IMG/VR virus record: IMGVR_UViG_3300037847_001474
Location: 1-35,643 of that record
Length of the DNA: 35,643 bases
Strand: one strand, 5' to 3'
From: a virus
Shown: piece after piece, positions 1,183 to 12,923 of the stretch
Numbering within the stretch: the stretch's first letter is position 1
Layout: each line of letters begins with the position of its first letter
The notes under the pieces: model-generated
Database searches by the model: none
What the model was told of the DNA's origin: nothing
What the model saw: only the letters and a program-made list of their open reading frames with translations
Position numbers and translations under genes: made by a program

Positions 1183-1184
1183 TG

Positions 1185-1554: not shown

Positions 1555-1562
1555 ACCTCTAC

Positions 1563-1920: not shown

Positions 1921-1969
1921 TTAATGACTGCTCAGTTAGTGTTACATAGTCCCTCCGATTACTCTCTCA

Positions 1970-2173
1970 TTATACCTTACCATGTGCATAGTTGTCAACA
2001 CATTCCCAAGACCATTTGATATGCTTGATATAATCGAAGCACGACATTCTCGGAGTATTTGGGAATGCATCTCCCATACTATTCCGAATGCCATCGATAT
2101 ACCTTTCCATGTCATAGATGCTGTTGAAAGTTCCTCTCAGGTTGTGCTGATTGTCGTAGATAAGATAATGCAT
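1970..2173 (-). CDS. Small phage protein, 67 aa
   Basis: Encodes 67 aa beginning MHYLIYDNQHNL and containing aromatic and basic residues (YDMERYIDGIRNSMG; FDYIKHIKWSWECV). It is the first gene after a textbook sigma70-type promoter (-10 at 2219-2224), 46 bases upstream of the ATG, so it is probably expressed early. No domain is recognised. Confidence 0.7.
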   Translation of the reverse strand: MHYLIYDNQHNLRGTFNSIYDMERYIDGIRNSMGDAFPNTPRMSCFDYIKHIKWSWECVDNYAHGKV

Positions 2174-2406
2174 AAGTCTTGAAAGATACTAGGTGTGTTT
2201 CTCAACCCTTACAAGGTTATTATAAAGGAAAGTGAGAAATAAGTCAAGGGGGTTTCTGACATTTATCTGCATATTCTCACAGGGGTTGACAATCGTTAGG
2301 TGACGTGCTAAGAGTACAACAAACGGAGACATTAATCGAGGAATAAAACACACTAATAGGTTTTTTAATAGTTTTCCACAATTTCCGCATATGTTGTGGA
2401 AAAGTG
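2174..2406. other. 233-base intergenic control region
   Basis: No convincing gene lies here. The region holds the minus-strand promoter at 2219-2247, a perfect 10-bp inverted repeat at 2371-2403, and two of the three TTTTCCACA boxes. It is the longest gene-free stretch in the small-gene region. A 37-codon frame at 2277-2390 is too weak to call. Confidence 0.6.
2219..2247 (-). promoter_or_regulatory. Sigma70-type early promoter
   Basis: On the minus strand TTGACT (2242-2247) is followed after 17 bases by a perfect TATAAT (2219-2224). It points at the 67-aa gene and the left-end operon. Host RNA polymerase should read it without phage factors, consistent with early expression. Confidence 0.8.
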
Positions 2407-2471
2407 TTAATCAGTGCTGTGGCGGTTGTTGTTACGTTGTTTAGAGATATACTCCCTGAAAGTTTTCCACA
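2371..2471. repeat. Cluster of three TTTTCCACA boxes, two forming an inverted repeat
   Basis: Exact copies of TTTTCCACA lie at 2372-2380 (+), 2395-2403 (-) and 2463-2471 (+). The first two form a perfect 10-bp inverted repeat with a 12-base loop. From memory, TTTTCCACA is the DnaA-box consensus reported for Synechococcus PCC 7942. The only other copy I found in the window is isolated, near 31264. There is no T-run beside the repeat, so it is not a classic terminator. It is a candidate DnaA or initiator site. Confidence 0.45.
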
Positions 2472-2613
2472 GGATGATAGTAATTTCCTTAGTTGTCAGT
2501 TTGATGTAATCGAGTTGTTCTCTGAATGTCGTCCCATCTTTGTCGGAAGATGAGAACATTGACTTGCGTTGTTGGTTGTCTGGCAGAGGCGGCACATTCT
2601 CGGGGTTTGTCAT
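2407..2613 (-). CDS. Small protein overlapping its upstream neighbour, 68 aa
   Basis: From ATG at 2611-2613 the frame encodes 68 aa (MTNPENVPPLPDNQ..., then a helical KLTTKEITIILWKTFREYI). A GTG two codons upstream is an alternative start. The first ~125 bases lie within the 77-aa gene in another frame, but the last 27 codons are unique and look protein-like. Its 3' end carries a TTTTCCACA box. No family is recognised. Confidence 0.5.
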   Translation of the reverse strand: MTNPENVPPLPDNQQRKSMFSSSDKDGTTFREQLDYIKLTTKEITIILWKTFREYISKQRNNNRHSTD

Positions 2614-2722
2614 ACTCACAAATGCAGTAAGTTATATAATCGTTTGAAATAAAAGTGATGTACCCCTCAACACCATCTAGAGAGATATATTCATTTAGTT
2701 GAAAATCATCGGTTGTTATCAT
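2489..2722 (-). CDS. Small protein, 77 aa
   Basis: Encodes 77 aa with an N-terminal beta-rich half (DDFQLNEYISLDGVEGYITF) and a Cys-containing segment (CICEYDKPRECAASARQP) ending in a basic tail. The ATG overlaps the stop of the preceding gene as ATGA, indicating translational coupling. The layout resembles small conserved proteins I associate with T4-like cyanophages (…EYI…GY…C…WDE…), but the function is unknown. It overlaps the 68-aa gene by about 125 bases. Confidence 0.7.
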   Translation of the reverse strand: MITTDDFQLNEYISLDGVEGYITFISNDYITYCICEYDKPRECAASARQPTTQVNVLIFRQRWDDIQRTTRLHQTDN

Positions 2723-2946
2723 ATAGTTAAAAACGGATGATTGTTGTCAAGAATGTCGGATGATGTAGCAAATTTAATTGTTCCTTGTGTGGGGTAATAC
2801 TCTGCTAGGTGTTCATCATAAATGGAGACATTTTGCTGGAGTTGGTTTTCATCCAGTTGTTGTAATTGTTCTAGTAATTGTTGATAAGTCATGTTCATTT
2901 TACGATAATCGGATGATTCTGACCATGGGAAGATAATCCAACTCAT
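2719..2946 (-). CDS. MTYQQLLEQL-family small protein, copy A (75 aa)
   Basis: The ATG at 2944-2946 overlaps the TGA of the 44-aa gene as ATGA, so the protein starts MSWIIFPWS. A helical Gln/Leu-rich stretch (MTYQQLLEQLQQL) follows, then an acidic beta-like half. A second copy with the same architecture lies at 8455-8673 (MSW..PWS leader, then MTYQQLLEQLQ), so the two are paralogues. It is likely a soluble small regulator or binding protein. No function is known to me. Confidence 0.75.
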   Translation of the reverse strand: MSWIIFPWSESSDYRKMNMTYQQLLEQLQQLDENQLQQNVSIYDEHLAEYYPTQGTIKFATSSDILDNNHPFLTI

Positions 2947-3077
2947 TTGCAATAAGAGGGATCAATTTGACAAATTTTATCCATCTTTTGATCGTTAATC
3001 TCTTGCATTTTATTGATAGCAGAGAGACCAACATTAACGCCGATCAGGATAACAATAGCAGCAAGAGCGATACGCAT
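2943..3077 (-). CDS. Small exported or membrane peptide, 44 aa
   Basis: The frame ATG 3075-3077 to TGA 2943-2945 gives 44 aa. Residues 3-20 (IALAAIVILIGVNVGLSA) form a membrane helix or uncleaved signal. A polar tail with two Cys (KICQIDPSYCK) follows, suggesting a periplasmic disulfide or a lipid-independent anchored peptide. It is coupled by ATGA to the MTYQQ gene. The role is unknown; modification of the host envelope is one possibility. Confidence 0.65.
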   Translation of the reverse strand: MRIALAAIVILIGVNVGLSAINKMQEINDQKMDKICQIDPSYCK

Positions 3078-3104
3078 GATGATAAAAAATAGGTGTGTAA
3101 TTAA

Positions 3105-3428
3105 TTAGGCGAAAATGTAACCATTCTCGAAATCTTTGGTTACATTGTTGTCACGAATGAACCACTCATAATTCTTCTGAAAAACACCATCAGTGACGCC
3201 ATTACAGAAACGATTGATGATAGCATTAAGGCGTGATTTAGTTGTAGTTGTTTGCCAACCACCATCAAAGATCTCAAGGAAGTCTTCACCAAGGACGGCA
3301 ATTTTGTTACCATGAAGACGAACAATAGAAGTATTATTTTCTTCGTTAAAATGAACAGAAGTGTTACCAGATTGCCAGTTCTTGCTGTTAGCGAGAGCAG
3401 TGTTCATTTGTTGTTCGATTTTACGCAT
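3105..3428 (-). CDS. Conserved-type phage protein, 107 aa
   Basis: Encodes 107 aa: an N-terminal helix (MRKIEQQMNTALAN), a beta-rich middle (VHFNEENNTSIVRLHGNKIA...DGGWQTTTTKSRLNAII) and a C-terminal 'W F I R D' segment. It looks like a compact globular domain, found (as I recall) in both cyanobacterial and cyanophage genomes as an uncharacterised protein. It is the first gene after the -10 at 3485-3490. No catalytic motif is visible. Confidence 0.8.
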   Translation of the reverse strand: MRKIEQQMNTALANSKNWQSGNTSVHFNEENNTSIVRLHGNKIAVLGEDFLEIFDGGWQTTTTKSRLNAIINRFCNGVTDGVFQKNYEWFIRDNNVTKDFENGYIFA

Positions 3429-3484
3429 TTGAGATGATTGAGTGAATGTTTGGTGGGTTTGGTTTCCCTCCCCCTGATGTCTTT

Positions 3485-3517
3485 ATTATAGAGCATTTCG
3501 GGGGTCTGTATACCCCC
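3485..3517 (-). promoter_or_regulatory. Early promoter with stem-loop in place of the -35
   Basis: A perfect TATAAT on the minus strand (3485-3490) lies 57 bases before the 107-aa gene. Where a -35 would be, there is instead a GGGGG/CCCCC stem-loop (3500-3517, minus strand GGGGGTATACAGACCCCC). The stem-loop has no T-run, so it is unlikely to be a full terminator. It resembles the terminator at 12342-12360 in sequence (CACAGGGGGT...CCCCC). Confidence 0.6.
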
Positions 3518-3544
3518 TGTGTGCCACTTTGTTAGGTGTCACAT
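3517..3544. repeat. 28-base direct repeat, copy 1 (see 7431-7458)
   Basis: This stretch matches 7431-7458 at 24 of 28 positions, and all four differences are transitions. Both copies begin inside the stop (ATG TGA) of the upstream gene and lead into an early promoter. They contain GTGCCAC and GTCAC half-sites. Likely a shared regulatory element. Confidence 0.65.
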
Positions 3545-3718
3545 ACCATTCATAAAATCATGAATTGCTTCGTTATATTCTTCTTCGGTCTGATATGTGC
3601 GACCGTGAATAGTATAAGGAAACGTTTTCTTTTGAAACATTGTCGATGCAGTTTCTACATCTTTTCGATCATAACCCATTTGAACAAGGTTTTCAACGTA
3701 AGGATTCACAATAGTCAT
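3539..3718 (-). CDS. Small protein, 59 aa
   Basis: ATG 3716-3718 to TGA 3539-3541 gives 59 aa. Residues 8-24 (VENLVQMGYDRKDVETA) resemble a UBA-like three-helix pattern. Then comes a hairpin-like KKTFPYTIHGRTYQTEEEY and a helix ending FMNGM. It lies 30 bases after the 68-aa gene and shares its promoter. The domain similarity is weak and the function unknown. Confidence 0.7.
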   Translation of the reverse strand: MTIVNPYVENLVQMGYDRKDVETASTMFQKKTFPYTIHGRTYQTEEEYNEAIHDFMNGM

Positions 3719-3748
3719 AATTTGATGTTAGTTAGGAAAAAGGGCGAT

Positions 3749-3955
3749 TCAGTCAAAGAGGGCAGTTTTTTCGTATGCATCGTAAAACATATCCCATGCT
3801 TTGTTGTTATGAACAAAGGACGAAACTTCGGCATGTTCAGCAACATAATCATATGCCATATCGATGTCGGCATTTGTGTCAACAATGAACGCGGGAAGCG
3901 TTGCGATTGCGTCGATGAACTTGGGAGAGGTGTGAATCATGTGTGTTTCTTTCAT
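3749..3955 (-). CDS. Small protein, 68 aa
   Basis: Encodes 68 aa, mainly helical and acidic (FIDAIATLPAFIVDTNADIDM; HAEVSSFVHNNKAWDMFYDA). It is the first gene after promoter 3962-3990 and starts only a few bases past the -10, so the leader is very short. No domain is recognised and it is probably cytosolic. Confidence 0.75.
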   Translation of the reverse strand: MKETHMIHTSPKFIDAIATLPAFIVDTNADIDMAYDYVAEHAEVSSFVHNNKAWDMFYDAYEKTALFD

Positions 3956-3961
3956 GCTCCT

Positions 3962-3990
3962 AATATGGCACAGATTTGGGCAAAAATCAA
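3962..3990 (-). promoter_or_regulatory. Early promoter TTGATT-N17-CATATT
   Basis: The minus strand shows TTGATT (3985-3990), a 17-base spacer and CATATT (3962-3967), close to the CATACT -10 form used elsewhere in this region. Upstream, at 3999-4020, is an imperfect dyad (GTGCTACT/AGTGGCAC with a 6-base loop). Confidence 0.65.
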
Positions 3991-3998
3991 GGGGTTTT

Positions 3999-4020
3999 GT
4001 GCTACTTTGATTAGTGGCAC
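3999..4020. repeat. GTGC(C/T)ACT dyad upstream of early promoter
   Basis: Arms GTGCTACT (3999-4006) and AGTGGCAC (4013-4020) pair except at one position, around a TTGATT loop. It sits just upstream of the -35 at 3985-3990 and shares the GTGCCA core with other promoter-proximal dyads in the window. Confidence 0.5.
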
Positions 4021-4033
4021 AAGGGGGGTTGAC

Positions 4034-4192
4034 TTACTGGGCGAGTTCCCACATATCATTAAAGTTGCGTAACCAGTTCACATGTTTCTGATCTAAATCG
4101 GTTAAATCTTGCTCATCTGCTGAAACATATGGAAGACTATGTTTAGTGCAATAGTCTTCATAAACGTCAGTTAAAAAATCAATTTTGTCCAT
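4034..4192 (-). CDS. Small acidic protein, 52 aa
   Basis: ATG 4190-4192 to TAA 4034-4036 encodes 52 aa (MDKIDFLTDVYEDYC..., ending WLRNFNDMWELAQ). It is acidic and helical, with aromatics at both ends. The start directly follows the TAA of the 72-aa gene (TAAATG), which points to coupled translation. The pattern fits small conserved early proteins of cyanophages. Function unknown. Confidence 0.75.
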   Translation of the reverse strand: MDKIDFLTDVYEDYCTKHSLPYVSADEQDLTDLDQKHVNWLRNFNDMWELAQ

Positions 4193-4411
4193 TTATACGC
4201 CCTCCCTGATGTAACCATTTTCTGACTTGATAAATGCATCGAGCATAGGAATGTTCAACTCAGGATCATCAAAGTCAATTTTTGCACATCCATCAACACC
4301 CCACTCTGCTAATTCTTGAACGAAATCTTTCCAATCAGAGCAGTAACATGCTACGTTTTGAAAGTTACCAACTTGGAGGATTCTGTTGATGATTGTTTGA
4401 GTTTTGGTCAT
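4193..4411 (-). CDS. Small protein, 72 aa
   Basis: The longer open frame to 4522 runs through the promoter, so I place the start at ATG 4409-4411 (MTKTQTIINRILQV). The 72-aa product is helix-rich, with Cys (VACYCSDW) and a C-terminal IKSENGYIREGV. The leader from the -10 at 4437 is about 20 bases. No known domain is visible. Confidence 0.75.
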   Translation of the reverse strand: MTKTQTIINRILQVGNFQNVACYCSDWKDFVQELAEWGVDGCAKIDFDDPELNIPMLDAFIKSENGYIREGV

Positions 4412-4436
4412 GGATGTCTTTTGTTTGTATACACTT

Positions 4437-4479
4437 ATTATAGTGTTATTTGTGGCACAATGGTAATACAATGTGCCAC
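4437..4479 (-). promoter_or_regulatory. Early promoter with GTGGCACA/TGTGCCAC dyad
   Basis: A perfect TATAAT (4437-4442, minus strand) has no recognisable -35. That position is occupied by a perfect 8-bp inverted repeat: GTGGCACA at 4452-4459 and TGTGCCAC at 4472-4479, with a 12-base loop. This is the layout expected for an operator or activator site, here for the 72-aa and 52-aa genes. Confidence 0.55.
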
Positions 4480-4494
4480 TTATATAATTGTCAC

Positions 4495-4863
4495 TTACAT
4501 GTAAAGATAACCGCCTGCCCAATCAGCACGGGCGAAACATTCTTCGCGGGAGTTATCATCAAGCAGATTAAATCGGATATGCTTTGCAGGTGCTTTCCAT
4601 GATGCTGGTTTATACACATTGCCAAACTTTTTCTCGATAAAAGCATGAACACTGCGCGAACCTGCTTCAGTCTCCATGATAACTTTGTGATACTTACGAC
4701 CGCTCTCAATGTAGAATTTATAGTCGCAAGATCTGCCGTTGTTTCTACCTTTGAAGTCTTGCAGCAATGCTTCACATAGCATCTCAGAATACTTCAGGAC
4801 GTTTGCAGTGGTTTCCATGCGTTGTTGTTCAGTAGCAGCGAATTCAGCGAAAGATTGTCTCAT
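4495..4863 (-). CDS. Conserved-type phage protein, 122 aa
   Basis: Encodes 122 aa. Helical N-terminus (RQSFAEFAATEQQRMETTANV), then a beta-rich domain (YKFYIESGRKYHKVIMETEA; VHAFIEKKFGNVYKPASWK) and a C-terminal 'FARADWAGGYLY'. The strong alternation and conserved-looking aromatics indicate a folded domain. I believe similar proteins occur widely in cyanophages without known function. It follows the 90-aa gene at 3 bases and shares promoter 5164-5192. Confidence 0.8.
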   Translation of the reverse strand: MRQSFAEFAATEQQRMETTANVLKYSEMLCEALLQDFKGRNNGRSCDYKFYIESGRKYHKVIMETEAGSRSVHAFIEKKFGNVYKPASWKAPAKHIRFNLLDDNSREECFARADWAGGYLYM

Positions 4864-4866
4864 AAA

Positions 4867-5139
4867 TCAACCCACACATGCCATGGGCATATACTCAGAC
4901 TGAGGCATTTTGTCGGTGTTGTAGTCAGTTACCTCAGCACCCTTAGCAATACGCGAAGCAACCTCATGTTTGAAGTCAGTTGCACTAATAACGCTGTAGG
5001 ATTTCATACCATTAGCACGAAAAGTGACACGCTTAGTGAAACGTTTGATGACAACTTTCATGCCTTTCTTCTCACATGCCTCAGCAATAAATGCCTCAGG
5101 GAAGAAATCAACAATGGTGGCGGAGTTGGTGAGTTGCAT
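4867..5139 (-). CDS. Small protein, 90 aa
   Basis: The open frame reaches 5214, but a promoter lies inside that extension, so the start is set at ATG 5137-5139 (MQLTNSATIVDFFPEAF), with a purine-rich AAAGAGAGC just before it. The 90-aa product has a basic middle (KVVIKRFTKRVTFRANGMK), suggesting nucleic-acid contact, and a polar C-terminus. No family is recognised. Confidence 0.75.
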   Translation of the reverse strand: MQLTNSATIVDFFPEAFIAEACEKKGMKVVIKRFTKRVTFRANGMKSYSVISATDFKHEVASRIAKGAEVTDYNTDKMPQSEYMPMACVG

Positions 5140-5163
5140 TTGCTCTCTTTCTTTGACTCTTAT

Positions 5164-5192
5164 AGTATGGCACCGATCAGGGTGCTTTGCAA
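5164..5192 (-). promoter_or_regulatory. Early promoter TTGCAA-N17-CATACT
   Basis: On the minus strand TTGCAA (5187-5192) and CATACT (5164-5169) are separated by 17 bases. The transcribed leader CTATAAGAGTCAAAG is identical over 15 bases to that after the -10 at 7399-7404. A GTGCCAGTTTGG motif lies upstream, starting directly at the helicase stop codon. Confidence 0.7.
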
Positions 5193-5223
5193 GCGATAGT
5201 GGACACTTTACCAAACTGGCACA

Positions 5224-6468
5224 TCAGCAGTAGGCGAGAGGGGGGATACCCTCTAGAAAGATTTGATTAACAACGTTCTGCAATCTTGCTGCGATAGCAT
5301 TACCCATCTTGTAACCTGTTGGCATAGTAACAACACCTTCCTGCTTTTTATAGAGGTGAAATGCACCAGCAGGGATGCGACCTTCAGCAACAGCAGCGCG
5401 GTCATCTTTATGCACACGGATAACACGACCGATTGTCTGTGCCATCTCAACAATAGGCAGATTTCTGAGCAGAATAGTATGAGTCAACCCAGGCACATTG
5501 ATGCCCTCACTGAGAATAGAATAGTGAAAGATCACAAACTTACGATTGTCATCAGCACCCCAAGATTGCAGAGTGGTGAAGAACTCTTCACGACCAACTT
5601 TTTTGTCGTTGATGATAGCACCGAACTTAGAGGTGATGTGCATCACGTCATAACCTTTCTTGTAGAAATACTCAAGAATGTCAGTGTGTCCGAGCATGTT
5701 ACCCAGCACTTTGCTGGATGGTGCTGCAACCAGAACTTTAGGTTTCTGGAATACATCGAGTTGCTCAAACATATCCTTCAAGTTGTCAGCGTCAACCTCA
5801 TGTGCGTTGACTTTGTTACGAGTGCGATTTGTCTCGAAAGGAACAACACGAGGGGGAACAATTGCACCTGCTTCGATGAGTTCCTTAGCAGGAACATTGC
5901 AGAGCACGCCACCATAAACATCAGTATTGTTCATGCCGCGAGCAACACTCACACCACGACCAGTTTTAGGGGTTGCAGTGAAATAGTAACGACGCTTAGC
6001 ATACTGAGCAGTAGCAAAGACGCTAATAAAGAAATGCTTTCCGCATCCATTGTGTGCTTCATCAAAATAAATGGTGTCGATATCAATACCACTCTCAACA
6101 ACGCGGTGCAAAGAATGATAAGTTGTGAATATAATGCAGTTCTCACCTGCTGTTCGCGCAGTGTTATTGAACAGGGCGATCTTGTCTGCTTTTGTTGTGC
6201 TGAAGTGGTGTGTTTCACCGCTGTGAGCATGACAAACATGCACATCACGATGATGAATATGCTCCATGAATTCTTCGCAAAGTTGATTAGCGAGGAGGAT
6301 ACGCGGAGCGACTACAACAATAGTCTGGGGACCACAATCGCGCAGATGTTTGTAAGTATCAGCGATCATGATGTATGTCTTGCCACCACCAGTGGGAACA
6401 ATAATCTGACCAGCATTGTTGTTTTGCATTGCTGCAAATGCACGTTGTTGATGGGGGCGAAGTTGCAT
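5224..6468 (-). CDS. SF2 DNA/RNA helicase, UvsW-like
   Basis: The 414-aa product is a superfamily 2 helicase. Motif I is PTGGGKT (residues 25-31), motif II is DEAH (136-139), motif III is TATPK (~164), the SEGINVP segment is motif V (~320) and motif VI is QTIGRVIR (344-351). The Q-like tip RPHQQRA lies at the N-terminus. The closest T4 analogue by architecture is UvsW, which remodels recombination and replication-fork intermediates, although UvsW is longer (about 590 aa) with an extra N-terminal domain that is absent here. It is the first gene after promoter 6491-6519, with no clear Shine-Dalgarno. The long antisense frame over it is a coding shadow. Confidence 0.9.
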   Translation of the reverse strand: MQLRPHQQRAFAAMQNNNAGQIIVPTGGGKTYIMIADTYKHLRDCGPQTIVVVAPRILLANQLCEEFMEHIHHRDVHVCHAHSGETHHFSTTKADKIALFNNTARTAGENCIIFTTYHSLHRVVESGIDIDTIYFDEAHNGCGKHFFISVFATAQYAKRRYYFTATPKTGRGVSVARGMNNTDVYGGVLCNVPAKELIEAGAIVPPRVVPFETNRTRNKVNAHEVDADNLKDMFEQLDVFQKPKVLVAAPSSKVLGNMLGHTDILEYFYKKGYDVMHITSKFGAIINDKKVGREEFFTTLQSWGADDNRKFVIFHYSILSEGINVPGLTHTILLRNLPIVEMAQTIGRVIRVHKDDRAAVAEGRIPAGAFHLYKKQEGVVTMPTGYKMGNAIAARLQNVVNQIFLEGIPPLAYC

Positions 6469-6490
6469 GAATAACCTTGACTATGACTAT

Positions 6491-6519
6491 AGTATGACAC
6501 AAAAAAGGACCTCAGTCAA
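6491..6519 (-). promoter_or_regulatory. Early promoter TTGACT-N17-CATACT for the helicase
   Basis: On the minus strand TTGACT (6514-6519) and CATACT (6491-6496) lie 17 bases apart. The -35 hexamer is exactly the loop of the terminator hairpin at 6501-6526, and the T-run lies in the spacer. The leader TCATAGTCAAG is shared with promoter 8889-8917. A CCAGT/ACTGG dyad lies upstream at 6530-6545. Confidence 0.75.
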
Positions 6520-6526
6520 GAGGTCC
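6501..6526 (-). terminator. Intrinsic terminator overlapping the helicase promoter
   Basis: The minus strand reads GGACCTC, loop TTGACT, GAGGTCC, then six T: a perfect 7-bp GC-rich stem followed by a U-tract. It should end transcripts of the 77-aa gene and its upstream neighbours. It overlaps the next promoter, whose -35 forms the loop. Confidence 0.85.
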
Positions 6527-6529
6527 AGA

Positions 6530-6545
6530 CCAGTTTATCGACTGG
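6530..6545. repeat. CCAGT/ACTGG dyad
   Basis: CCAGT (6530-6534) and ACTGG (6541-6545) form an inverted repeat with a 6-base loop, directly upstream of the terminator/promoter unit. GTGCCAGT on the minus strand is the same core seen at 5215-5222 and 8938-8946. Confidence 0.5.
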
Positions 6546-6553
6546 CACACACA

Positions 6554-6787
6554 TCAAATCTCTTCTTCTTCGCGTGTAAGATCTTCGATGAAAATAAACT
6601 CAAAATCATCATCTTCAGGGTCTTTACCATCAACAACCCACTCTTCAAATACAGAGATAGCATCCCAATTTCGACCAGTATTAGCGCACTCGTTCATAGC
6701 GTCCCAATAAGTGTCACGCATAGTGTCAACACAATGCTGTTTGTCATCGGTGTGATCACAAAAAAGATCAAGAGTGGAGTCGTTCAT
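6554..6787 (-). CDS. Small acidic protein, 77 aa
   Basis: Encodes 77 aa, strongly acidic (DGKDPEDDDFEFIFIEDL, ending EEEEI), with two Cys near the N-terminus (FCDHTDDKQHC). The start is 2 bases after the 71-aa gene. Acidic small early phage proteins often mimic DNA or bind host proteins, but nothing here proves that. The gene ends just before a terminator. Confidence 0.75.
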   Translation of the reverse strand: MNDSTLDLFCDHTDDKQHCVDTMRDTYWDAMNECANTGRNWDAISVFEEWVVDGKDPEDDDFEFIFIEDLTREEEEI

Positions 6788-6789
6788 TG

Positions 6790-7005
6790 TTATTCAGAGA
6801 GAGGTGATTCGCGTTTGCAGATGTTATTTTTACCGCTCAATACATCATCAACATATGCACTTGAGCGAGGTTTCATATATTCTTCAATTTCTTTTAGTTC
6901 ATCTGGACTCATTGAATAAGACAAACCCAGATCTTCATTGAACCAAAAGTCCTCCCAATCTTCAGGAGAGTCAGTTACATCTTCGATGTTCTTTTTATCA
7001 GTCAT
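6790..7005 (-). CDS. Small acidic protein, 71 aa
   Basis: Encodes 71 aa, acidic with aromatics (SPEDWEDFWFNEDLGLSYSM; DELKEIEEYMKPRS) and a basic C-terminus (KNNICKRESPLSE). It overlaps the 63-aa gene by 8 bases, indicating coupled translation. No domain is recognised. Two consecutive acidic proteins here may act together, which is speculation. Confidence 0.75.
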   Translation of the reverse strand: MTDKKNIEDVTDSPEDWEDFWFNEDLGLSYSMSPDELKEIEEYMKPRSSAYVDDVLSGKNNICKRESPLSE

Positions 7006-7189
7006 TCAGTGCTTCAACCTCGTAACGAATTTGGTTTGGATATGTTTTTTGTGCCCATTTTAGCACTCGATTGTTTTGTGCTTTGATGCCCTTATGTGAC
7101 GTTGGTTTGGTAGGCATTGTCCGAGAGACTTGCATCATCGTGAACTGATCATAGATCCGAACGAGATACGTTTGAGTGTTACTTTTCAT
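6998..7189 (-). CDS. Small basic protein, 63 aa
   Basis: Encodes 63 aa rich in Lys, Arg and Thr (TMPTKPTSHKGIKAQNNRVL; WAQKTYPNQIRYEVEAL). The N-terminal strand (QTYLVRIYDQFTMM) and basic middle suggest nucleic-acid or ribosome contact. It lies 6 bases after the 59-aa gene. No family assigned. Confidence 0.75.
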   Translation of the reverse strand: MKSNTQTYLVRIYDQFTMMQVSRTMPTKPTSHKGIKAQNNRVLKWAQKTYPNQIRYEVEALND

Positions 7190-7195
7190 TGTTAA

Positions 7196-7375
7196 TCAAC
7201 CTCCGAAGTTGTCATCCATGAATGCAGAATCCTGACCAAACATTTCCTCGAAGAGGTTCAGGTTGCCAGTGATTGTGGCGCACTCTTTAACATTTTCGAT
7301 GAACTCATCGGTGTTAGTTTGAGGGAGAAGATTGGTGGTGCTGTGCATTTTGCCGTTGCGATCTTTCCAGAGCAT
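7196..7375 (-). CDS. Small protein, 59 aa
   Basis: ATG 7373-7375 to TGA 7196-7198 encodes 59 aa (MLWKDRNGKMHSTTNLLP..., then an acidic helix EFIENVKECA and FEEMFGQDSAFMDDNFGG). It is the first gene after promoter 7399-7426, with a 20-base leader. It is likely cytosolic and of unknown function. Confidence 0.7.
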   Translation of the reverse strand: MLWKDRNGKMHSTTNLLPQTNTDEFIENVKECATITGNLNLFEEMFGQDSAFMDDNFGG

Positions 7376-7398
7376 GTGTGTGTTCCTTTGACTCTTAT

Positions 7399-7426
7399 AG
7401 AATACACCATTTTGAGGCGTCTACAA
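7399..7426 (-). promoter_or_regulatory. Early promoter TTGTAG-N16-TATTCT
   Basis: On the minus strand TTGTAG (7421-7426) and TATTCT (7399-7404) are separated by 16 bases. The following CTATAAGAGTCAAAG is shared exactly with promoter 5164-5192. The 28-base repeat copy 2 (7431-7458) lies directly upstream. Confidence 0.6.
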
Positions 7427-7430
7427 GCGT

Positions 7431-7458
7431 CTGTGTGCCACCTTGTCGGGCGTCACAT
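7431..7458. repeat. 28-base direct repeat, copy 2 (see 3517-3544)
   Basis: It matches 3517-3544 at 24 of 28 bases. It overlaps the TGA stop (7453-7455) of the 96-aa gene, as copy 1 overlaps the stop of the 59-aa gene. Confidence 0.65.
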
Positions 7459-7743
7459 CCAAAGTGACTCTAATCCCCTACGATTGATCTGCATCGCTGT
7501 TAGCGGGCGTGTAGAGTTGATGTCAACAACTGCACCGATTTTCTTGGCATTGATTGGTGCATAGTATTCTCGTTTTTTTGTGTTGTAAAACCCCCAGATG
7601 GTGCTAACTTGATCGCCACCATTGAAACAATAACTGTTAAGATGGTCACACCAAATGCCAATAACATTTGCTCTAAACTGGGTGGTTCTGTATCTAAATC
7701 CTGCGGGTGCTTCATGAATAAAATCAGGGGGAAGTTCAATCAT
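7453..7743 (-). CDS. Conserved-type small protein, 96 aa
   Basis: Encodes 96 aa, beta-rich with many aromatics (AGFRYRTTQFRANVIGIWCD; STIWGFYNTKKREYYAPIN) and a basic C-terminal part. It looks like a small globular domain and could bind nucleic acid. It is coupled by ATGA to the 84-aa gene. No motif is recognised. Confidence 0.75.
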   Translation of the reverse strand: MIELPPDFIHEAPAGFRYRTTQFRANVIGIWCDHLNSYCFNGGDQVSTIWGFYNTKKREYYAPINAKKIGAVVDINSTRPLTAMQINRRGLESLWM

Positions 7744-7994
7744 AGTTTACCACCAACGATGGCAGATCCTACCACACGGGTGTAATCTTCAAGTGTGCCT
7801 TCTTGTTCACACTTAAGGTGCCAATGTGTCATGGTGATAACACCCTCACGAGTGCCACCAGTTAACATGTTGCGACCTTCTTTAGTCATCGTTGAGTATA
7901 GTCCAAACCGAGTTTTCCAAACATAAAAAACATCATCAATGAGTTCAGCATTTTCAGGGATTGTGATTTCAGGATGGAGTTTAGTTTCAGTCAT
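7740..7994 (-). CDS. Small protein, 84 aa
   Basis: Encodes 84 aa with two beta-like segments (IDDVFYVWKTRFGLYSTM; REGVITMTHWHLKCEQEG). The start and stop overlap both neighbours by 4 bases (ATGA). It belongs to a tightly coupled chain of small genes from 8864 to 7453 that all read from promoter 8889-8917. Function unknown. Confidence 0.75.
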   Translation of the reverse strand: MTETKLHPEITIPENAELIDDVFYVWKTRFGLYSTMTKEGRNMLTGGTREGVITMTHWHLKCEQEGTLEDYTRVVGSAIVGGKL

Positions 7995-8146
7995 TTACGT
8001 TTCTTGATTGCTCTTACTATTTTACGTTGAATCTCTTTATGTGAGATATTGGAGAACAATAGTTGTTCACCTTGTGCCTGCGTGAAAGAATTAACGCGAC
8101 ACATAATATAGTCGAGATACCTCAACTCTTCTTGTCGTAATTTCAT
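7991..8146 (-). CDS. Small basic protein, 51 aa
   Basis: ATG 8144-8146 to TGA 7991-7993 encodes 51 aa. It is highly basic and helical (MKLRQEELRYLDYIMCR...; KEIQRKIVRAIKKRK) and likely binds nucleic acid or an acidic partner. It overlaps the 56-aa gene and the 84-aa gene by 4 bases each. Confidence 0.7.
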   Translation of the reverse strand: MKLRQEELRYLDYIMCRVNSFTQAQGEQLLFSNISHKEIQRKIVRAIKKRK

Positions 8147-8313
8147 CCGAAAATGTGTGTCCACGAGTGATGTTGTGCCTTAGTGATTCTACCATCATCA
8201 AGTAATCCATCAACAACGCGACAGAAAACCTGAAACTTTTCCTCTCGGGTGAGATTGGGATCGACACGCATTGCGGTCTCACCAATAACTTTGACGACGT
8301 TTTTCTTGAGCAT
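8143..8313 (-). CDS. Small protein, 56 aa
   Basis: The frame stays open to 8349, but ATG 8311-8313 lies one base after the TAA of the 46-aa gene and avoids a 35-base overlap, so I use that start. The product has 56 aa and is helical (KNVVKVIGETAMRVDPNLTR; FQVFCRVVDGLLDDGRI). It is coupled to the downstream 51-aa gene by overlap. No known domain. Confidence 0.7.
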   Translation of the reverse strand: MLKKNVVKVIGETAMRVDPNLTREEKFQVFCRVVDGLLDDGRITKAQHHSWTHIFG

Positions 8314-8314
8314 T

Positions 8315-8455
8315 TTACTGAGCGAGATTCCAGAAACGTTGTGAAGCAATTGTTGCCTGTTGTTCGATAGTCAAGTCAGGATATTCTTCCTGAACTTGTT
8401 CAAAGAGATTTTCCATAATCTCTGTATTTGTGTCACATGACATAAGTTTCTCCAT
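8315..8455 (-). CDS. Small protein, 46 aa
   Basis: ATG 8453-8455 to TAA 8315-8317 encodes 46 aa (MEKLMSCDTNTEIMENL..., ending ASQRFWNLAQ). The ATG overlaps the TGA of copy B of the MTYQQ family (TGATG), supporting this start over the internal ATG four codons later. It is an acidic, amphipathic helical protein of unknown function. Confidence 0.65.
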   Translation of the reverse strand: MEKLMSCDTNTEIMENLFEQVQEEYPDLTIEQQATIASQRFWNLAQ

Positions 8456-8673
8456 CAGAATGTAATAACGAAATGGTTAGAGTCTAGAACTTGATCTTCT
8501 TCATCAGTAAAATCACCGCTGTACACAGGAACAAACTCATCATCTTTGATTGAATACAAAGTTGCAGTTTGATTGAGTTGTTGAGGTGATAGTGCTTGAA
8601 GTTGTTCCAGCAGTTGTTGATAGGTCATTTTTTTATGAGTTAATTGTGACCATGGAATGAGACCCCATGACAT
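8455..8673 (-). CDS. MTYQQLLEQL-family small protein, copy B (72 aa)
   Basis: Encodes 72 aa. The start ATG overlaps the TAA of the 63-aa gene (TAATG), so the leader MSWGLIPWSQ is real protein. MTYQQLLEQLQ and an acidic beta-like half follow. It is a paralogue of 2719-2946 with the same order of parts. The C-terminal halves differ much more than the helical core. The role is unknown. Confidence 0.75.
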   Translation of the reverse strand: MSWGLIPWSQLTHKKMTYQQLLEQLQALSPQQLNQTATLYSIKDDEFVPVYSGDFTDEEDQVLDSNHFVITF

Positions 8674-8864
8674 TAGAAAGGGTTGCTCCAGTTTTCGTAC
8701 TGCTTGAGACTAATCTCACCACACTTGCAAAGCATATCAGTGAAGTCACCGAACGCAATACGCTTGGCGATCTTGTCAGTTTTGAGTGAAGGATTTTCAA
8801 GAGTTGCTACCTTCCAGTTGTAACGGAATTGCTCAACAACTTGTGCTTTGGTGTAATGACGCAT
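8673..8864 (-). CDS. Small protein, 63 aa
   Basis: The longer frame to 8948 crosses the promoter, so the start is placed at ATG 8862-8864 (MRHYTKAQVVEQFRYNW). The product has 63 aa, helical and basic, with Cys at DMLCKCGE. It is the first gene of the 8864-7453 chain, with a leader of about 25 bases from the -10. No family is recognised. Confidence 0.75.
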   Translation of the reverse strand: MRHYTKAQVVEQFRYNWKVATLENPSLKTDKIAKRIAFGDFTDMLCKCGEISLKQYENWSNPF

Positions 8865-8888
8865 GTCTGATTGCTTGACTATGAATAT

Positions 8889-8917
8889 AGTATGACAGGT
8901 TCCCAGGCAAAAGTCAA
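8889..8917 (-). promoter_or_regulatory. Early promoter TTGACT-N17-CATACT
   Basis: On the minus strand TTGACT (8912-8917), 17 bases, CATACT (8889-8894). The TGA stop of the cysteine-cluster gene (8914-8916) is inside the -35 hexamer. Upstream is a perfect GCCAGTT/AACTGGC dyad (8927-8944) that lies within the end of that gene. Confidence 0.8.
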
Positions 8918-9423
8918 GAGGTTTGCGCCAGTTCTGCAACTGGCACATTGCTCACGATCTCTCCACCATTTTTTTCTACATGATGTTTAATCCATTTTTC
9001 ATCGCCTAAGTGAAACCAACTGCCATTACATTCATATTCAATGTTCATGCCATGTTCCATACTCAAACGTAACACATAGTTCAAAATATCTGACCGAACT
9101 GGATTGTTACATTCGCGCATAGTTATGTAACCAACTAGTTCACCATCTATCTCATCTTCACCAAATGCCATAATAACATCTGATTTATTAGGTTTCATCC
9201 ACTCTGGAAGAGTTGGTGTAATTTTCCAGAGACATTGATACTCTTGACATAATGTCGGACGTTGGTCGTAGATAGTACATCCACCGCCCTCACATTCACC
9301 AAGAAAATGACAGGGACGACCCTTGAACATTTGAATTCCGTGAATGTTTGCGTTCAAATGTCCTTGACAACATGCAGTGCAATCACCACACTCACGCTTC
9401 ATTTCAATTCGGTCAAGTGTCAT
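8914..9423 (-). CDS. YkgJ-type cysteine-cluster protein
   Basis: The 169-aa product opens with CGDCTACC (Cys12, 15, 18, 19), then C38, C44, C49, C59 and C64 with the signature 'YDQRPTLCQEYQC'. This is the pattern of the YkgJ/UPF0153 zinc- or iron-chelating cluster family, found in many bacteria and phages with no firm biochemical role. The C-terminal 80 residues show no known motif. The ATG overlaps the Dam stop (ATGA), so it is the third gene of a Dam-containing operon. Its last 15 codons contain the promoter dyad and the -35 of the next operon. Confidence 0.75.
   Translation of the reverse strand: MTLDRIEMKRECGDCTACCQGHLNANIHGIQMFKGRPCHFLGECEGGGCTIYDQRPTLCQEYQCLWKITPTLPEWMKPNKSDVIMAFGEDEIDGELVGYITMRECNNPVRSDILNYVLRLSMEHGMNIEYECNGSWFHLGDEKWIKHHVEKNGGEIVSNVPVAELAQTS
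8927..8944. repeat. Perfect GCCAGTT/AACTGGC dyad
   Basis: GCCAGTT (8927-8933) and AACTGGC (8938-8944) flank a 4-base loop, 10 bases upstream of the -35 at 8912-8917. It is the best-formed member of the CCAGTT-type dyads near early promoters. It is also coding (VPVAELA). Confidence 0.55.
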
Positions 9424-10337
9424 CGCTTAATAATTAGAATTTCATGGGACTTTTTAGGGTCATTGTTCTCTTTGTTCTTGCCAACACGAGTCTCACCCAG
9501 AGAGTATGAATAGTGCCATTCAGGATATACAAACTCATACTCAGAATACCACTCACGAATAGTTTCGCAGTTGTTGTAACTGAGAACAAACGGACCCTCG
9601 TGACGTGATAACATCATCGCCATATATTCATGGTCAAAGTTGTTGTGATAGATGGGGAAGTTTGCGTTGGGATACATCCCTTTGAACATCTTGTTATCTG
9701 CATCTTTCTCCAAATAATATGGAGGGTCGAGATACAAGAAGTCTTTTTTGTGATATGGAATAGTATCAATCATATTACCAATCTGAACATTCAAATTAGG
9801 ATTGACATACTTCTCCAATCTATCAATCATACGATCCCACTTTTCACGCGATTCATAGATCTTACTCATCCAACCGAGATACATCGGACCATAAGAAAGG
9901 TTATGGTTATAGAAGAAATAAGCAGCAGCATCTTTGTGGCACAATGTGATCATCTCTTCATCTGGTACACGATAATATGCCCAGCGATCTTTCTCATCCC
10001 TATCCATTGGAGCGGGGAACATCATCTGGGTGATGCACCACTTCATCAATTCATCTTTGACTTGTTTATATTCATCTTTAGTTGGTTCCAGATACCTACA
10101 ACGTGCAACCAAATCCTCACGATAATCTAGAAGAATGTTCCAGAAAATGACAAGGGGATGAAGTACATCATACCCCTGCACAGGAATATCTAACTCAGAA
10201 CTCCAGCGAGATTCTAGACTACCACCACCAATAAATGGTGAGACAATCTTACCCGTAGGAAGATGCTCAGGTAGATATTCAGTAATGATTTTATATGCTT
10301 TGGATTTACCACCAGCATATCGCAATGGAGTTTTCAT
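9420..10337 (-). CDS. dam: DNA adenine methylase, D12 (Dam) class
   Basis: The 305-aa protein has the D12-class order. RYAGGKSK (residues 6-13) and PFIGGGSLE (33-41) form the AdoMet-binding part, a variable helical target-recognition region follows, and DPPYY (204-208) is the catalytic motif for N6-adenine methylation. The size fits family members (about 260-310 aa). The recognition site cannot be read from sequence, though GATC is usual for Dam-like phage enzymes. It overlaps both neighbours by 4 bases: a possible nuclease upstream and the cysteine-cluster gene downstream. Likely roles are protection from restriction or marking of phage DNA. Confidence 0.9.
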   Translation of the reverse strand: MKTPLRYAGGKSKAYKIITEYLPEHLPTGKIVSPFIGGGSLESRWSSELDIPVQGYDVLHPLVIFWNILLDYREDLVARCRYLEPTKDEYKQVKDELMKWCITQMMFPAPMDRDEKDRWAYYRVPDEEMITLCHKDAAAYFFYNHNLSYGPMYLGWMSKIYESREKWDRMIDRLEKYVNPNLNVQIGNMIDTIPYHKKDFLYLDPPYYLEKDADNKMFKGMYPNANFPIYHNNFDHEYMAMMLSRHEGPFVLSYNNCETIREWYSEYEFVYPEWHYSYSLGETRVGKNKENNDPKKSHEILIIKR

Positions 10338-10873
10338 TTACGGGTTGCAGATTTTGTTAGAATTATAGCATGTTGCTCCTGAATATATTGCTCCCAAGGT
10401 TTACCCGCTTCCTGATAATTCCAGGCAGGGTGATGACCTTCAGAAGCAACATAGTCAGCGAGACATTTTTCTTCCATCTCTTTGAAAGCAGAGATGGACA
10501 TAGTTTCTGCACCAAAGAGACCTTTGACGGGTGCAGAAACCTGTTCAGAAGTAATCATGTAGACAGATACTTCTTCGCCTTTCGTTGTCGCTTCGTACAC
10601 AAGTTGGTTGATACCAAACGAACGAATTGACGGGCGTCCAGTGTTAGCAGACACATAGAAAGACATGGTGGATTTGATACCACCTTTAGAGACACTGCCA
10701 CCGATCTTCATGATCTCGCCATCTTTGACGAGAAGATATACACGACCAGCATCATCTTTGAGAACATTCTTAGGAAGATTCTCATAGTTGAGTTTAAGTC
10801 GTGCCTTAGAAGTTCCATCATTCAATGCGAACTTTCCGACCAGAATAGCAGTTTTGACGTTGGAGATGTTCAT
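10334..10873 (-). CDS. Possible GIY-YIG-like nuclease
   Basis: The 179-aa product shows VYLLVKDGEIMKIGG (residues 45-59), a fair match to the 'GIY-(10-11)-YIG' core. Candidate Arg residues follow (R80, R84), with E134/E135 and a C-terminal '...ADY...P.WN' (ending N152) where GIY-YIG enzymes have their metal-binding Glu and final Asn. The match is by eye and the usual spacing is stretched, so a non-catalytic relative is possible. The gene overlaps Dam by 4 bases (ATGA). A nuclease paired with a methylase would be a phage-encoded restriction-like or self/non-self pair, which is inference. Confidence 0.45.
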   Translation of the reverse strand: MNISNVKTAILVGKFALNDGTSKARLKLNYENLPKNVLKDDAGRVYLLVKDGEIMKIGGSVSKGGIKSTMSFYVSANTGRPSIRSFGINQLVYEATTKGEEVSVYMITSEQVSAPVKGLFGAETMSISAFKEMEEKCLADYVASEGHHPAWNYQEAGKPWEQYIQEQHAIILTKSATRK

Positions 10874-10928
10874 AACAAAAATAGAGATTTGGGAGAGTCT
10901 TTGGGGCGCTGCTCATTCCCATGCCCAT

Positions 10929-10934
10929 ATTATA
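10929..10934 (-). promoter_or_regulatory. Extended -10 promoter for the nuclease/Dam operon
   Basis: The minus strand reads TGCTATAAT: a perfect -10 (10929-10934) preceded by the TGn extended element. There is no -35 match at 17 bases. It overlaps the last codons of the 54-aa gene. A GTGCCAGTTGACGCAGTGG stretch lies upstream, within coding sequence. Confidence 0.65.
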
Positions 10935-10937
10935 GCA

Positions 10938-11102
10938 TCAAAGGCAGGGGATGATGTCCACTGCGCCCACTGCGTCAACTGGCACAAGGTTGTCCATAAC
11001 AAACTTTACATTGTCTAACCCATAAACTACTACTTCTTGACGTGAATAAAATCCATTCTTTGCTTTGTTTTTCAACCAAGTGATGCGATACTTGTCAATC
11101 AT
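10938..11102 (-). CDS. Small protein, 54 aa
   Basis: ATG 11100-11102 to TGA 10938-10940 encodes 54 aa: MIDKYRITWLKNKAKNGFY, then a strand-rich VVVYGLDNVKFVMDNLVPV. It reads like a small beta-alpha domain. Its start overlaps the end of the 41-aa gene by 8 bases. As I recall, similar small proteins occur in T4-like cyanophages. Function unknown. Confidence 0.7.
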   Translation of the reverse strand: MIDKYRITWLKNKAKNGFYSRQEVVVYGLDNVKFVMDNLVPVDAVGAVDIIPCL

Positions 11103-11220
11103 AAATCAGTTCTTTGATAGTTTCATCTTCGCTGCCAAGAATAGCAGATACCCATTCATCCTCAGGTGCTTGAACGATGTCATTTTCATCCCAAGAGATG
11201 TCAAAGTCTTCATTGTACAT
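11095..11220 (-). CDS. Very small acidic protein, 41 aa
   Basis: ATG 11218-11220 to TGA 11095-11097 encodes 41 aa with a strongly acidic composition (MYNEDFDISWDENDIV; GSEDETIKELIYD). It overlaps both neighbours by about 10 bases, which supports a coupled gene rather than chance. It is short enough to be an inhibitor or mimic peptide, but nothing proves it. Confidence 0.6.
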   Translation of the reverse strand: MYNEDFDISWDENDIVQAPEDEWVSAILGSEDETIKELIYD

Positions 11221-11383
11221 ACTGACCAAATCCGTTGTTTTGAGAAATTTGTGCTGAGCGTTTCCAGTTGTTCAACTGGCGAAGTTTTTTCTTGAGACGA
11301 TGCATCTCCTCATTGGTATAAAGAAAAGGATCTTTATACCCTGCTTTGATAGCATGTTTCAGTAAGTTAATGTCTTTTTGCAT
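11210..11383 (-). CDS. Small basic protein, 57 aa
   Basis: ATG 11381-11383 to TGA 11210-11212 encodes 57 aa, helical and basic (MQKDINLLKHAIKAGYKDP; MHRLKKKLRQLNNWKRSA). Its start overlaps the TAA of the 64-aa gene (TAATG). A perfect 16-base palindrome (CCAGTTG TT CAACTGG, 11264-11279) lies inside the coding region. It possibly binds nucleic acid. Confidence 0.65.
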   Translation of the reverse strand: MQKDINLLKHAIKAGYKDPFLYTNEEMHRLKKKLRQLNNWKRSAQISQNNGFGQYVQ

Positions 11384-11577
11384 TACCTGTAGAGTTCTGT
11401 CAAATGTAATTTTTCAACGATGGTTTCTACCTCTTTCATTTTGGCGAGATAAACATCTGTTTCTACTAGTTTATCAGCATAATATCTTTTTTGCAAGTCA
11501 GAGACATACAAAAAAAGTGCGTCTTTTAGAATCATTTTTTCATCGATGTTGATGAGTTGTGAGTGGAGTCCGATCAT
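11383..11577 (-). CDS. Small coiled-coil-like protein, 64 aa
   Basis: Encodes 64 aa, nearly all helical (LKDALFLYVSDLQKRYYADK; VYLAKMKEVETIVEKLHLTE), suggesting a short coiled coil. It starts 2 bases after the TAA of the 57-aa gene upstream and overlaps the next gene (TAATG). Function unknown. Confidence 0.7.
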   Translation of the reverse strand: MIGLHSQLINIDEKMILKDALFLYVSDLQKRYYADKLVETDVYLAKMKEVETIVEKLHLTELYR

Positions 11578-11579
11578 CT

Positions 11580-11753
11580 TTAGCGGCGTAAGGTTTTGAG
11601 ATACTCAATAACATAGGAACGAATGTACATCAGTTCATGATAACACTTCTGATTGTGAGCACACTGCCGCAATTCATGATCAGGTTTGAGGACTGACTCA
11701 GTGAAGAGATCTAATCCTCTATTGAATTTTTGATCGTCGTGTTCGTTTTGCAT
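11580..11753 (-). CDS. Small protein, 57 aa
   Basis: ATG 11751-11753 to TAA 11580-11582 encodes 57 aa. It has His/Cys residues in the middle (LRQCAHNQKCYHELMYIRSY), which could bind a metal (C-x5-C with nearby His), and a basic C-terminus (KTLRR). It is part of the 12300-11210 small-gene chain. No known domain. Confidence 0.65.
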   Translation of the reverse strand: MQNEHDDQKFNRGLDLFTESVLKPDHELRQCAHNQKCYHELMYIRSYVIEYLKTLRR

Positions 11754-11765
11754 GTGCTCGTAGTC

Positions 11766-11936
11766 TTAGTATTGAACTGTGTAATCAATGTCGTAGTCTA
11801 CCTCAGAACCATCATCAAACTCTAGTTCTTCAGATTCATTTTCGATTTCAGTACCATCCGTTGTCGTTGTCAGTTTCTGGATCAAACTTTCGGCGGCGAT
11901 CTTTTTTGGTTGAATAGTCGTCATAGTTGCTGTCAT
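11766..11936 (-). CDS. Possible overlapping acidic protein, 56 aa
   Basis: The frame is open to 12020. I place the start at ATG 11934-11936, which has GGGGAG directly before it. The last 27 codons lie outside the neighbouring 65-aa gene and give a very acidic protein-like tail (ENESEELEFDDGSEVDYD...). The first half overlaps the 65-aa gene in another frame. It could be a separate gene or the shifted end of that gene. Confidence 0.35.
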   Translation of the reverse strand: MTATMTTIQPKKIAAESLIQKLTTTTDGTEIENESEELEFDDGSEVDYDIDYTVQY

Positions 11937-12045
11937 CTCCCCAATTTGTTCGATTAGTTCCACCTTTTGCTCGTTTGTCTCGAATAGATTTGCCAGGCGA
12001 GTAGTAACCTCGTTCGGCACCGCCCCGTCGAAAAGTCTTTCCCAT
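11848..12045 (-). CDS. Small Arg/Gly/Lys-rich protein, 65 aa
   Basis: ATG 12043-12045 (MGKTFRRGGAERGYYSPGKS) encodes 65 aa. It is basic and low-complexity in the first half (RDKRAKGGTNRTN) and acidic later (DPETDNDNGWY). The composition fits a disordered nucleic-acid-binding protein. I recall similar MGKTFRRG-type small proteins in cyanophages but no function. An in-frame TTG at 12064-12066 is a less likely start. Confidence 0.65.
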   Translation of the reverse strand: MGKTFRRGGAERGYYSPGKSIRDKRAKGGTNRTNWGDDSNYDDYSTKKDRRRKFDPETDNDNGWY

Positions 12046-12090
12046 TGTCTTGAAAATGTTAATCAAAAAAGAAACTACGTTAATATATAT

Positions 12091-12300
12091 TCAGTCTACA
12101 TCTCGGTAGACTGAGACATAATCGTCAGCATCGCTGTCTGGGACTGGATAAACTTGGGTGTGCAATTCTTCAAAGCAATAACCTACACCTTTCAGAAAGT
12201 CTTGGGTTTTGTCCACAACGTCGTCAAGTACTGTTGCTTCAAATTCTTTTGTTGTAACTGTTGAATCCTCATCTGTACAGATGAGAGTGAACTGAGGCAT
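12091..12300 (-). CDS. Small acidic protein, 69 aa
   Basis: The frame extends to 12375 through the terminator, so the real start is ATG 12298-12300 (MPQFTLICTDEDSTVTTKEF), with a GGAG Shine-Dalgarno 7 bases upstream. The product has 69 aa and is strand-rich and acidic (VLDDVVDKTQDFLKG; DSDADDYVSVYRDVD). It looks like a small alpha/beta domain. It is the first gene after the major terminator and opens the small-gene region. Confidence 0.75.
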   Translation of the reverse strand: MPQFTLICTDEDSTVTTKEFEATVLDDVVDKTQDFLKGVGYCFEELHTQVYPVPDSDADDYVSVYRDVD

Positions 12301-12325
12301 TTTGCTCCGTGTCGAATACTCATAA

Positions 12326-12331
12326 AGTATA
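12326..12331 (-). promoter_or_regulatory. Extended -10 promoter just after the terminator
   Basis: The minus strand reads TGCTATACT: -10 TATACT (12326-12331) with a TGn extension, 3 bases past the T-run of the terminator. It drives the 69-aa gene and the chain down to 11210. As at 6491-6526, terminator and promoter are fused in one short unit. Confidence 0.65.
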
Positions 12332-12333
12332 GC

Positions 12334-12360
12334 ACAAAAAAAGGGGGTGCGAGACCCCCT
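12334..12360 (-). terminator. Strong intrinsic terminator ending the structural module
   Basis: The minus strand reads AGGGGG, a 7-base loop, CCCCCT and a run of seven T. It lies 11 bases after the stop of the 2OG oxygenase gene at 12372. It separates late-type structural genes from the early small-gene region. Confidence 0.9.
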
Positions 12361-12371
12361 GTGACACCTCT

Positions 12372-12920: not shown

Positions 12921-12923
12921 AAT

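Follow-up and report, generated by a model that had tools for sequence, protein, structure and literature searches.

A palindromic operator-like element and overlapping terminator-promoter cassettes between the early genes of a T4-like cyanophage

The window analyzed here, positions 1-35,643 of IMG/VR virus record IMGVR_UViG_3300037847_001474, comes from a T4-like cyanomyovirus, of which it represents a 35.6-kb fragment. The early genes, all on the minus strand, lie around a gene for a UvsW-like helicase. Within 3.4-12.4 kb, nine minus-strand cassettes of one common architecture were found (Table 1), each carrying a promoter and a 24-bp palindrome, here called the operator (TGTGcCAGTTnnnnAAGTGGCACA), which begins 52-54 bp ahead of the -10 element (centre about -53). 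The cassettes are quite likely composite modules of early-gene control, made up of the operator and a promoter that is often interlocked with a terminator, and used as swap points for genes. The spacing, from the first base of the operator to the first base of the -10, was 52-54 bp in all nine. A joint scan for operator and -10 on the minus strand of the whole window gave these nine matches, a density of nine in 9 kb, and one weak match (35094) in the other 23 kb. The first-pass annotation, made from the sequence alone, had counted about ten units; nine bear the operator, and the tenth, the promoter at 2219-2247, showed no operator match in the joint scan of the window.

The nearest named relatives of the window are S-P4, Syn30 and S-E7 (Leucotheavirus), which match about 55-70% of the first 12.4 kb at about 90-92%; Syn19 and Syn2 are next-closest. 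A symmetric matrix built from seven window copies of the operator was scanned over 87 related loci and over Markov controls, and yielded 597 matches in the loci versus 107 in each Markov replicate. Within the next 130 bases, the best -10 was most often at an offset of 53 (174 cases), followed by 54 (67) and 52 (46), and 238 of 367 unique high-scoring operators had their best -10 at 52-54 bp downstream. A matrix-free test looked ahead of strong -10 boxes for palindromes in which 9 or more of the 12 pairs match: 21 were at offset 53, 7 at 54 and about one at each other offset. Refinement of the matrix, with phage Syn9 held out, gave 209 non-redundant copies with the consensus TGTGcCAGTTnaanAAGTGGCACA and, at the sequence level, a strong -10 with an extended consensus (TATAaT, then A). 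In Syn9, 8 of the 11 joint matches that scored >16 and faced a nearby gene fall in the early cluster at 43-53 kb. The remaining three are at 127.5, 130.4 and 148.8 kb, and one further match >16 reads the palindrome at 49130 in reverse. The architecture was found across Kyanoviridae, including the held-out Syn9, which bears out the earlier expectation that the units would be conserved in related phages.

The palindrome is most likely a DNA operator, because it stands in fixed phase to the promoter and its sequence is conserved without structural covariation. Among its copies no covariation of paired positions was detected (pairs 8-17, 79 observed versus 78.6 shuffled; pairs 5-20, 96 versus 93), and its folding energy is low (median -4.0 kcal/mol). 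The palindromes could instead be RNA stem-loops of the upstream transcript, active in 3'-end protection or termination, which would leave a simple promoter plus stem-loop unit and no DNA-binding factor. They do sit at the upstream stop codon, with the operator start mostly at -20 to +10 relative to it, and some are foldable; however, the pairs do not covary, folding is weak, a U-tract is missing, and the distance is fixed to the downstream -10 and not to the stop. An RNA origin is thus quite improbable. The GTGCCA motifs that the first-pass annotation had placed at the preceding stop codon are present, but they are the halves of the 24-bp DNA palindrome (repeat families D1 and D2) and do not behave as an RNA stem-loop.

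In its strict form the operator occurs 40 times in the 955 kb of phage loci. It was not found in marine Synechococcus or Prochlorococcus in a scan of one genome per bacterial or archaeal species, so that the operator looks phage-specific and a phage factor is preferred. A host regulon was considered and rejected; apart from two cyanophage-like contigs, the scan matches were chance-like (88 versus about 60 expected). The CRP-type site TGTGA-N6-TCACA was not matched by the consensus, whose half-sites are 14 bp apart. The factor is probably an activator, because the operator stops about 6 bp short of the -35, and a recognisable -35 is present in only 70 of the 209 promoters. A repressor site that turns the early genes off later in infection would also suit a dimeric palindrome, and AbrB-like proteins, to which the candidate discussed next belongs, are often repressors. 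Such a role is unlikely, since the operator is clear of the -35, the -10 and the start site, and the -35 is poor in most of these promoters.

For the proposed activator, the window offers a tentative and rather doubtful candidate, a phage protein of AbrB/MazE type (gene at 1390-1554). This gene lies downstream of the strong operator-less promoters 1969-1998 and 2219-2247 and would be expressed from them. The protein matches the swapped-hairpin domain PF04014 (27.5 bits, cutoff 24.7), Foldseek aligned it to AbrB, Abh and MazE with probabilities of 0.98-1.00 although E-values were weak (0.06-0.4), and the gene is conserved in 350 cyanophage (Kyanoviridae) records. The gene is also present in two mislabelled contigs for which the operator pattern was the sole search criterion. 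On the other side, S-SSM7 has 13 operator promoters, yet an AbrB-like gene was not detected anywhere in its record, the match in P-SSM2 is only weak, other uncharacterised proteins are equally conserved, and synteny alone could account for the co-occurrence. Another protein considered as the factor, the 'transcriptional regulator' gp230 of Syn9 (phrog_385), gave no Pfam domain. No toxin family was matched in the neighbours 1185-1397 and 1563-1781, so that the adjacent toxin of a MazEF pair is missing at the window locus. In S-CREM1, a homologue of the conserved AbrB-like cyanophage gene (16064-16228) bears the label 'antitoxin MazE', which is doubtful given the missing toxin partner in the window. 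Two database labels also deserve mention. NZ_RMVE01000006.1 (labelled Nonlabens xiamenensis) is a cyanophage of the P-TIM40 kind, with a 98.2% match over the 8 kb that were compared, and seems to have contaminated a bacterial assembly; NHFO01000063.1 (labelled Flavobacteriales TMED113) is cyanophage-like, with several operator cassettes and an AbrB-like gene, and was probably misbinned.

Real stem-loops are located between the operator and the -10. This segment folds at a mean of -5.6 versus -2.9 kcal/mol in shuffles, and a hairpin followed by a T-run is present in 47 of the 209 promoter segments versus 1.3 expected. In the alignment, the bases flanking the -35 covary (z 2.5-5.1 at seven stem positions), and a -35-like hexamer occupies the loop of 34 hairpins, which have 30 distinct 5' stems; stem sequence is variable, while pairing is kept and loop and spacing are constant. 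The window unit GGACCTC-TTGACT-GAGGTCC-TTTTTT-GTGT-CATACT (6491-6526) is an example. It contains the GGACCTC stem-loop of the first-pass annotation (GGACCTC-TTGACT-GAGGTCC-TTTTTT, 6507-6526), has its U-tract inside the 17-bp spacer, and precedes the UvsW-like helicase gene, of which it is the predicted promoter. As judged from these features, the stem-loops are predicted intrinsic terminators: each would end the upstream operon on bases that it shares with the next promoter, whose -35 is often in the loop. The GGGGG/CCCCC hairpins noted earlier were likewise found (3500-3517 and 12342-12360). The earlier assignment of a stem-loop to each unit holds for several of them; a terminator hairpin is not in every one.

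The cassettes also coincide with changes in gene content. Homology to S-P4, Syn30 and S-E7 starts or stops inside five window cassettes (12360, 8924, 7434, 6526 and 5200). It is lost in the spacer at 12360 and 5200 and gained near the -10 at 8924 and 6526; around 7434 the cassette alone matches relatives and both flanks differ, and near-copies of this cassette stand between unrelated genes in five relatives. Gene order was compared in 62 representative loci, with both genes required to be present. The upstream gene was conserved in 29% of cases when a cassette lay between, in 69% when the junction was <20 bp, and in 35% when the gap was long and operator-less. A downstream gene retained its cassette in 46% of cases with a different upstream neighbour and in 50% with the same one, with a base rate of 12.6%. 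Cassettes contain 25.4% of homology-block starts versus 3.3% by length (7.7-fold) and 11.3% of block ends. Cassette pairs with an identity of 74% or more over 86 bp numbered 156, and 41 of them had unrelated genes on both sides; the leader CTATAAGAGTCAAA fronts 12 gene families in 22 genomes. In ACG-2014f, 17 cassettes occur within 21 kb, and adjacent ones have the same 30 bases as spacer. The pattern of shuffling at cassettes thus has good support; recombination between them is a possible cause. As a separate observation, neighbouring cassettes of ACG-2014f (164-13034) are near-identical, those at 8602 and 8952 having the whole 30-base spacer in common, which suggests recent cassette duplication or conversion.

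Several points weigh against the composite reading. Breakpoints per kb were as frequent in cassettes (11.7) as in short operon-internal junctions (11.3), so that, base for base, cassettes are not the only hotspots. This equality speaks for a possibility of some weight, if below even chances, that cassettes are not drivers and breakpoints gather where selection tolerates operon boundaries; long operator-less gaps also break gene order (0.35 conserved) and hold 1.03 breakpoints per junction. However, cassettes hold more (1.65, versus 0.53 at short junctions), and tolerance alone does not predict the 41 near-identical pairs flanked on both sides by unrelated genes. The suggestion in the first-pass annotation that cassettes promote shuffling therefore stands for the pattern, in breakpoints and unrelated flanks; cassettes may drive it or may mark tolerated operon boundaries. 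Further, cassettes of the same genome are barely more alike than those of different genomes (0.411 versus 0.384; 26 of 39 genomes), three of the nine window cassettes have weaker operators, and additive selection by the matrix could mask weak covariation in the palindrome. The sequences show the architecture with its spacing, its conservation and its overlap with terminators, clustered breakpoints, and like cassettes between unrelated genes, whereas factor binding, activation over repression, termination in vivo and recombination as the cause are inferred from them.

As proposed, the composite module of about 85 bp would stand between two small operons, after the stop codon of the first and before the start of the second. 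The operator (about -65 to -42) would be bound by a dimeric factor, most likely activating host sigma-70 polymerase at promoters with a usually poor -35. In about a quarter of promoters the -35/spacer segment would also terminate the upstream operon as an intrinsic hairpin, whose loop holds the -35 and whose U-tract lies between the -35 and the -10. A strong -10 (TATAnTA) would be followed by an A-rich leader and a start codon about 29 nucleotides after the -10. The module would thereby insulate operons and, at the least cost in length, restart transcription. Since many different genes are fronted by near-identical cassettes, homologous recombination between them could let cyanophages swap early-gene modules with expression intact. 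A wider proposal, of an early regulon throughout Kyanoviridae with one phage operator, a virus AbrB-like activator, interlocked terminator-promoters and the same modules as recombination joints of a variable early repertoire, is speculative and on balance rather unlikely.

Promoter-early stem-loop (PeSL) cassettes of T4-type phages, as portrayed in passages of PMC4503421 and PMC3950731 (Arbiol 2010, Comeau 2014), are likewise composite units of promoter and terminator that stand between small genes of variable regions and go with gene shuffling at common sequence. Compared with those citing descriptions, the cyanophage cassettes add a 24-bp operator at fixed phase, and their -35 is often the terminator loop. 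High density in a variable region, a stem-loop terminator combined with a promoter (including window units 6491-6549 and 12326-12383), and breakpoints with a common cassette between unrelated genes were all found. The cassettes thus appear to work like T4-type PeSLs with an operator added. The first-pass annotation had called them the cyanophage counterpart of PeSLs, which agrees with the clustered breakpoints and with one cassette fronting unrelated genes, but its GTGCCA element is to be reassigned to the operator. PMC4503421 found PeSLs too sparse in the ORFan region of S-PM2 to explain shuffling there; cassette density is much higher here. The haloarchaeal virus HGTV-1 (PMC3950731) also has a repeated promoter with an inverted repeat before many open reading frames (ORFs), proposed as an aid to shuffling, but its promoters are of the archaeal TATA type and the virus is unrelated.

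T4 middle promoters (MotA box, AsiA) resemble the present ones, as proposed here, in being sigma-70 promoters that depend on a factor and combine a strong -10 with a poor -35. They differ in that a palindrome at about -65 to -42 takes the place of the -30 MotA box, and the promoters are not assigned to the MotA type. In a passage that cites Doron, PMC5780444 reports cyanophages to be without motA/asiA. A defined operator, its exact phase and a few candidate factors bear on the way in which cyanophages, reported to lack the MotA/AsiA switch of T4, order their early transcription. The interlock is a way for a compact genome to insulate many tiny operons, and the breakpoint data provide a concrete, countable mechanism for the trade of host-takeover genes among abundant marine viruses, extending PeSL-type shuffling to cyanophages. 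For early genes in Syn9 and P-TIM40, Doron et al. in 2016 reportedly described a 'novel regulatory element', said to be conserved among T4-like cyanophages. The operator may well be this element: both precede early genes, and the operator clusters at 43-53 kb in Syn9 and occurs in the P-TIM40-like contig. Identity, if true, limits the novelty of the operator. What the present analysis adds, subject to the primary PeSL and Syn9 transcriptome literature, is the interlock, the mapping of breakpoints and a candidate factor.

The features of the window are listed in Table 1. TTGACT-N17-CATACT promoters (6491-6519 and 8889-8917) and common leaders (5164/7399 and 6491/8889) were recovered where the first-pass annotation had seen them. 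In the window, a plain sigma-70 consensus scan stayed at chance level (34 sites versus 34.9 in shuffles), terminator-like sites were about twofold over shuffles (16 versus 8.4), and an Rfam search returned no meaningful match. The ORF 8914-9423 reads through the operator, and its TGA stop lies in the -35 TTGACT of the next promoter; the 3' end of the gene and the cassette thus overlap.

Table 1. Cassettes, operator-less promoters and selected genes in the window
Feature	Position	Strand	Details
Cassette 1	12326-12383	-	degenerate operator 12360-12383; predicted intrinsic terminator hairpin 12342-12360 with T-run; -10 TATACT 12326-12331, extended TG
Cassette 2	10929-10986	-	operator 10963-10986 (TGTGCCAGTTGACGCAGTGGGCGC); -10 TATAAT 10929-10934; -35 not clear
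Cassette 3	8889-8947	-	operator 8924-8947 (TGTGCCAGTTGCAGAACTGGCGCA); -35 TTGACT 8912-8917; -10 CATACT 8889-8894
Cassette 4	7399-7457	-	operator 7434-7457, overlaps upstream stop codon; -35 TTGTAG 7421-7426; -10 TATTCT 7399-7404
Cassette 5	6491-6549	-	operator 6526-6549; predicted terminator hairpin 6507-6526; -35 TTGACT 6514-6519 as loop; -10 CATACT 6491-6496
Cassette 6	5164-5223	-	operator 5200-5223; -35 TTGCAA 5187-5192; spacer hairpin 5170-5185; -10 CATACT 5164-5169
Cassette 7	4437-4495	-	operator 4472-4495, overlaps upstream TGA stop; -10 TATAAT 4437-4442; -35 poor
Cassette 8	3962-4021	-	operator 3998-4021; -35 TTGATT 3985-3990; -10 CATATT 3962-3967
Cassette 9	3485-3543	-	operator 3520-3543 (top score); GGGGG/CCCCC hairpin 3500-3517; -35-like TATACA 3507-3512 in loop; -10 TATAAT 3485-3490
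Operator-less consensus sigma-70 promoter	2219-2247	-	TTGACT-17-TATAAT
Operator-less perfect sigma-70 promoter	1969-1998	-	TTGACA-18-TATAAT; inside 3' part of ORF 1970-2173
UvsW-like DNA helicase gene	5224-6468	-	anchor used to collect related loci
54-amino-acid AbrB/MazE/SpoVT-fold protein	1390-1554	-	PF04014; candidate operator-binding factor

A further repeat was seen in the intergenic region 2174-2488, where three copies of TTTTCCACA, which we take to resemble a cyanobacterial DnaA box, lie within 100 bp (2372-2471). The cluster is a possible conserved replication origin or DnaA site. An inverted pair of TTTTCCACA, 23-31 bp apart, is present in most related phages, with 127 occurrences in 1.34 Mb versus about 10 expected.

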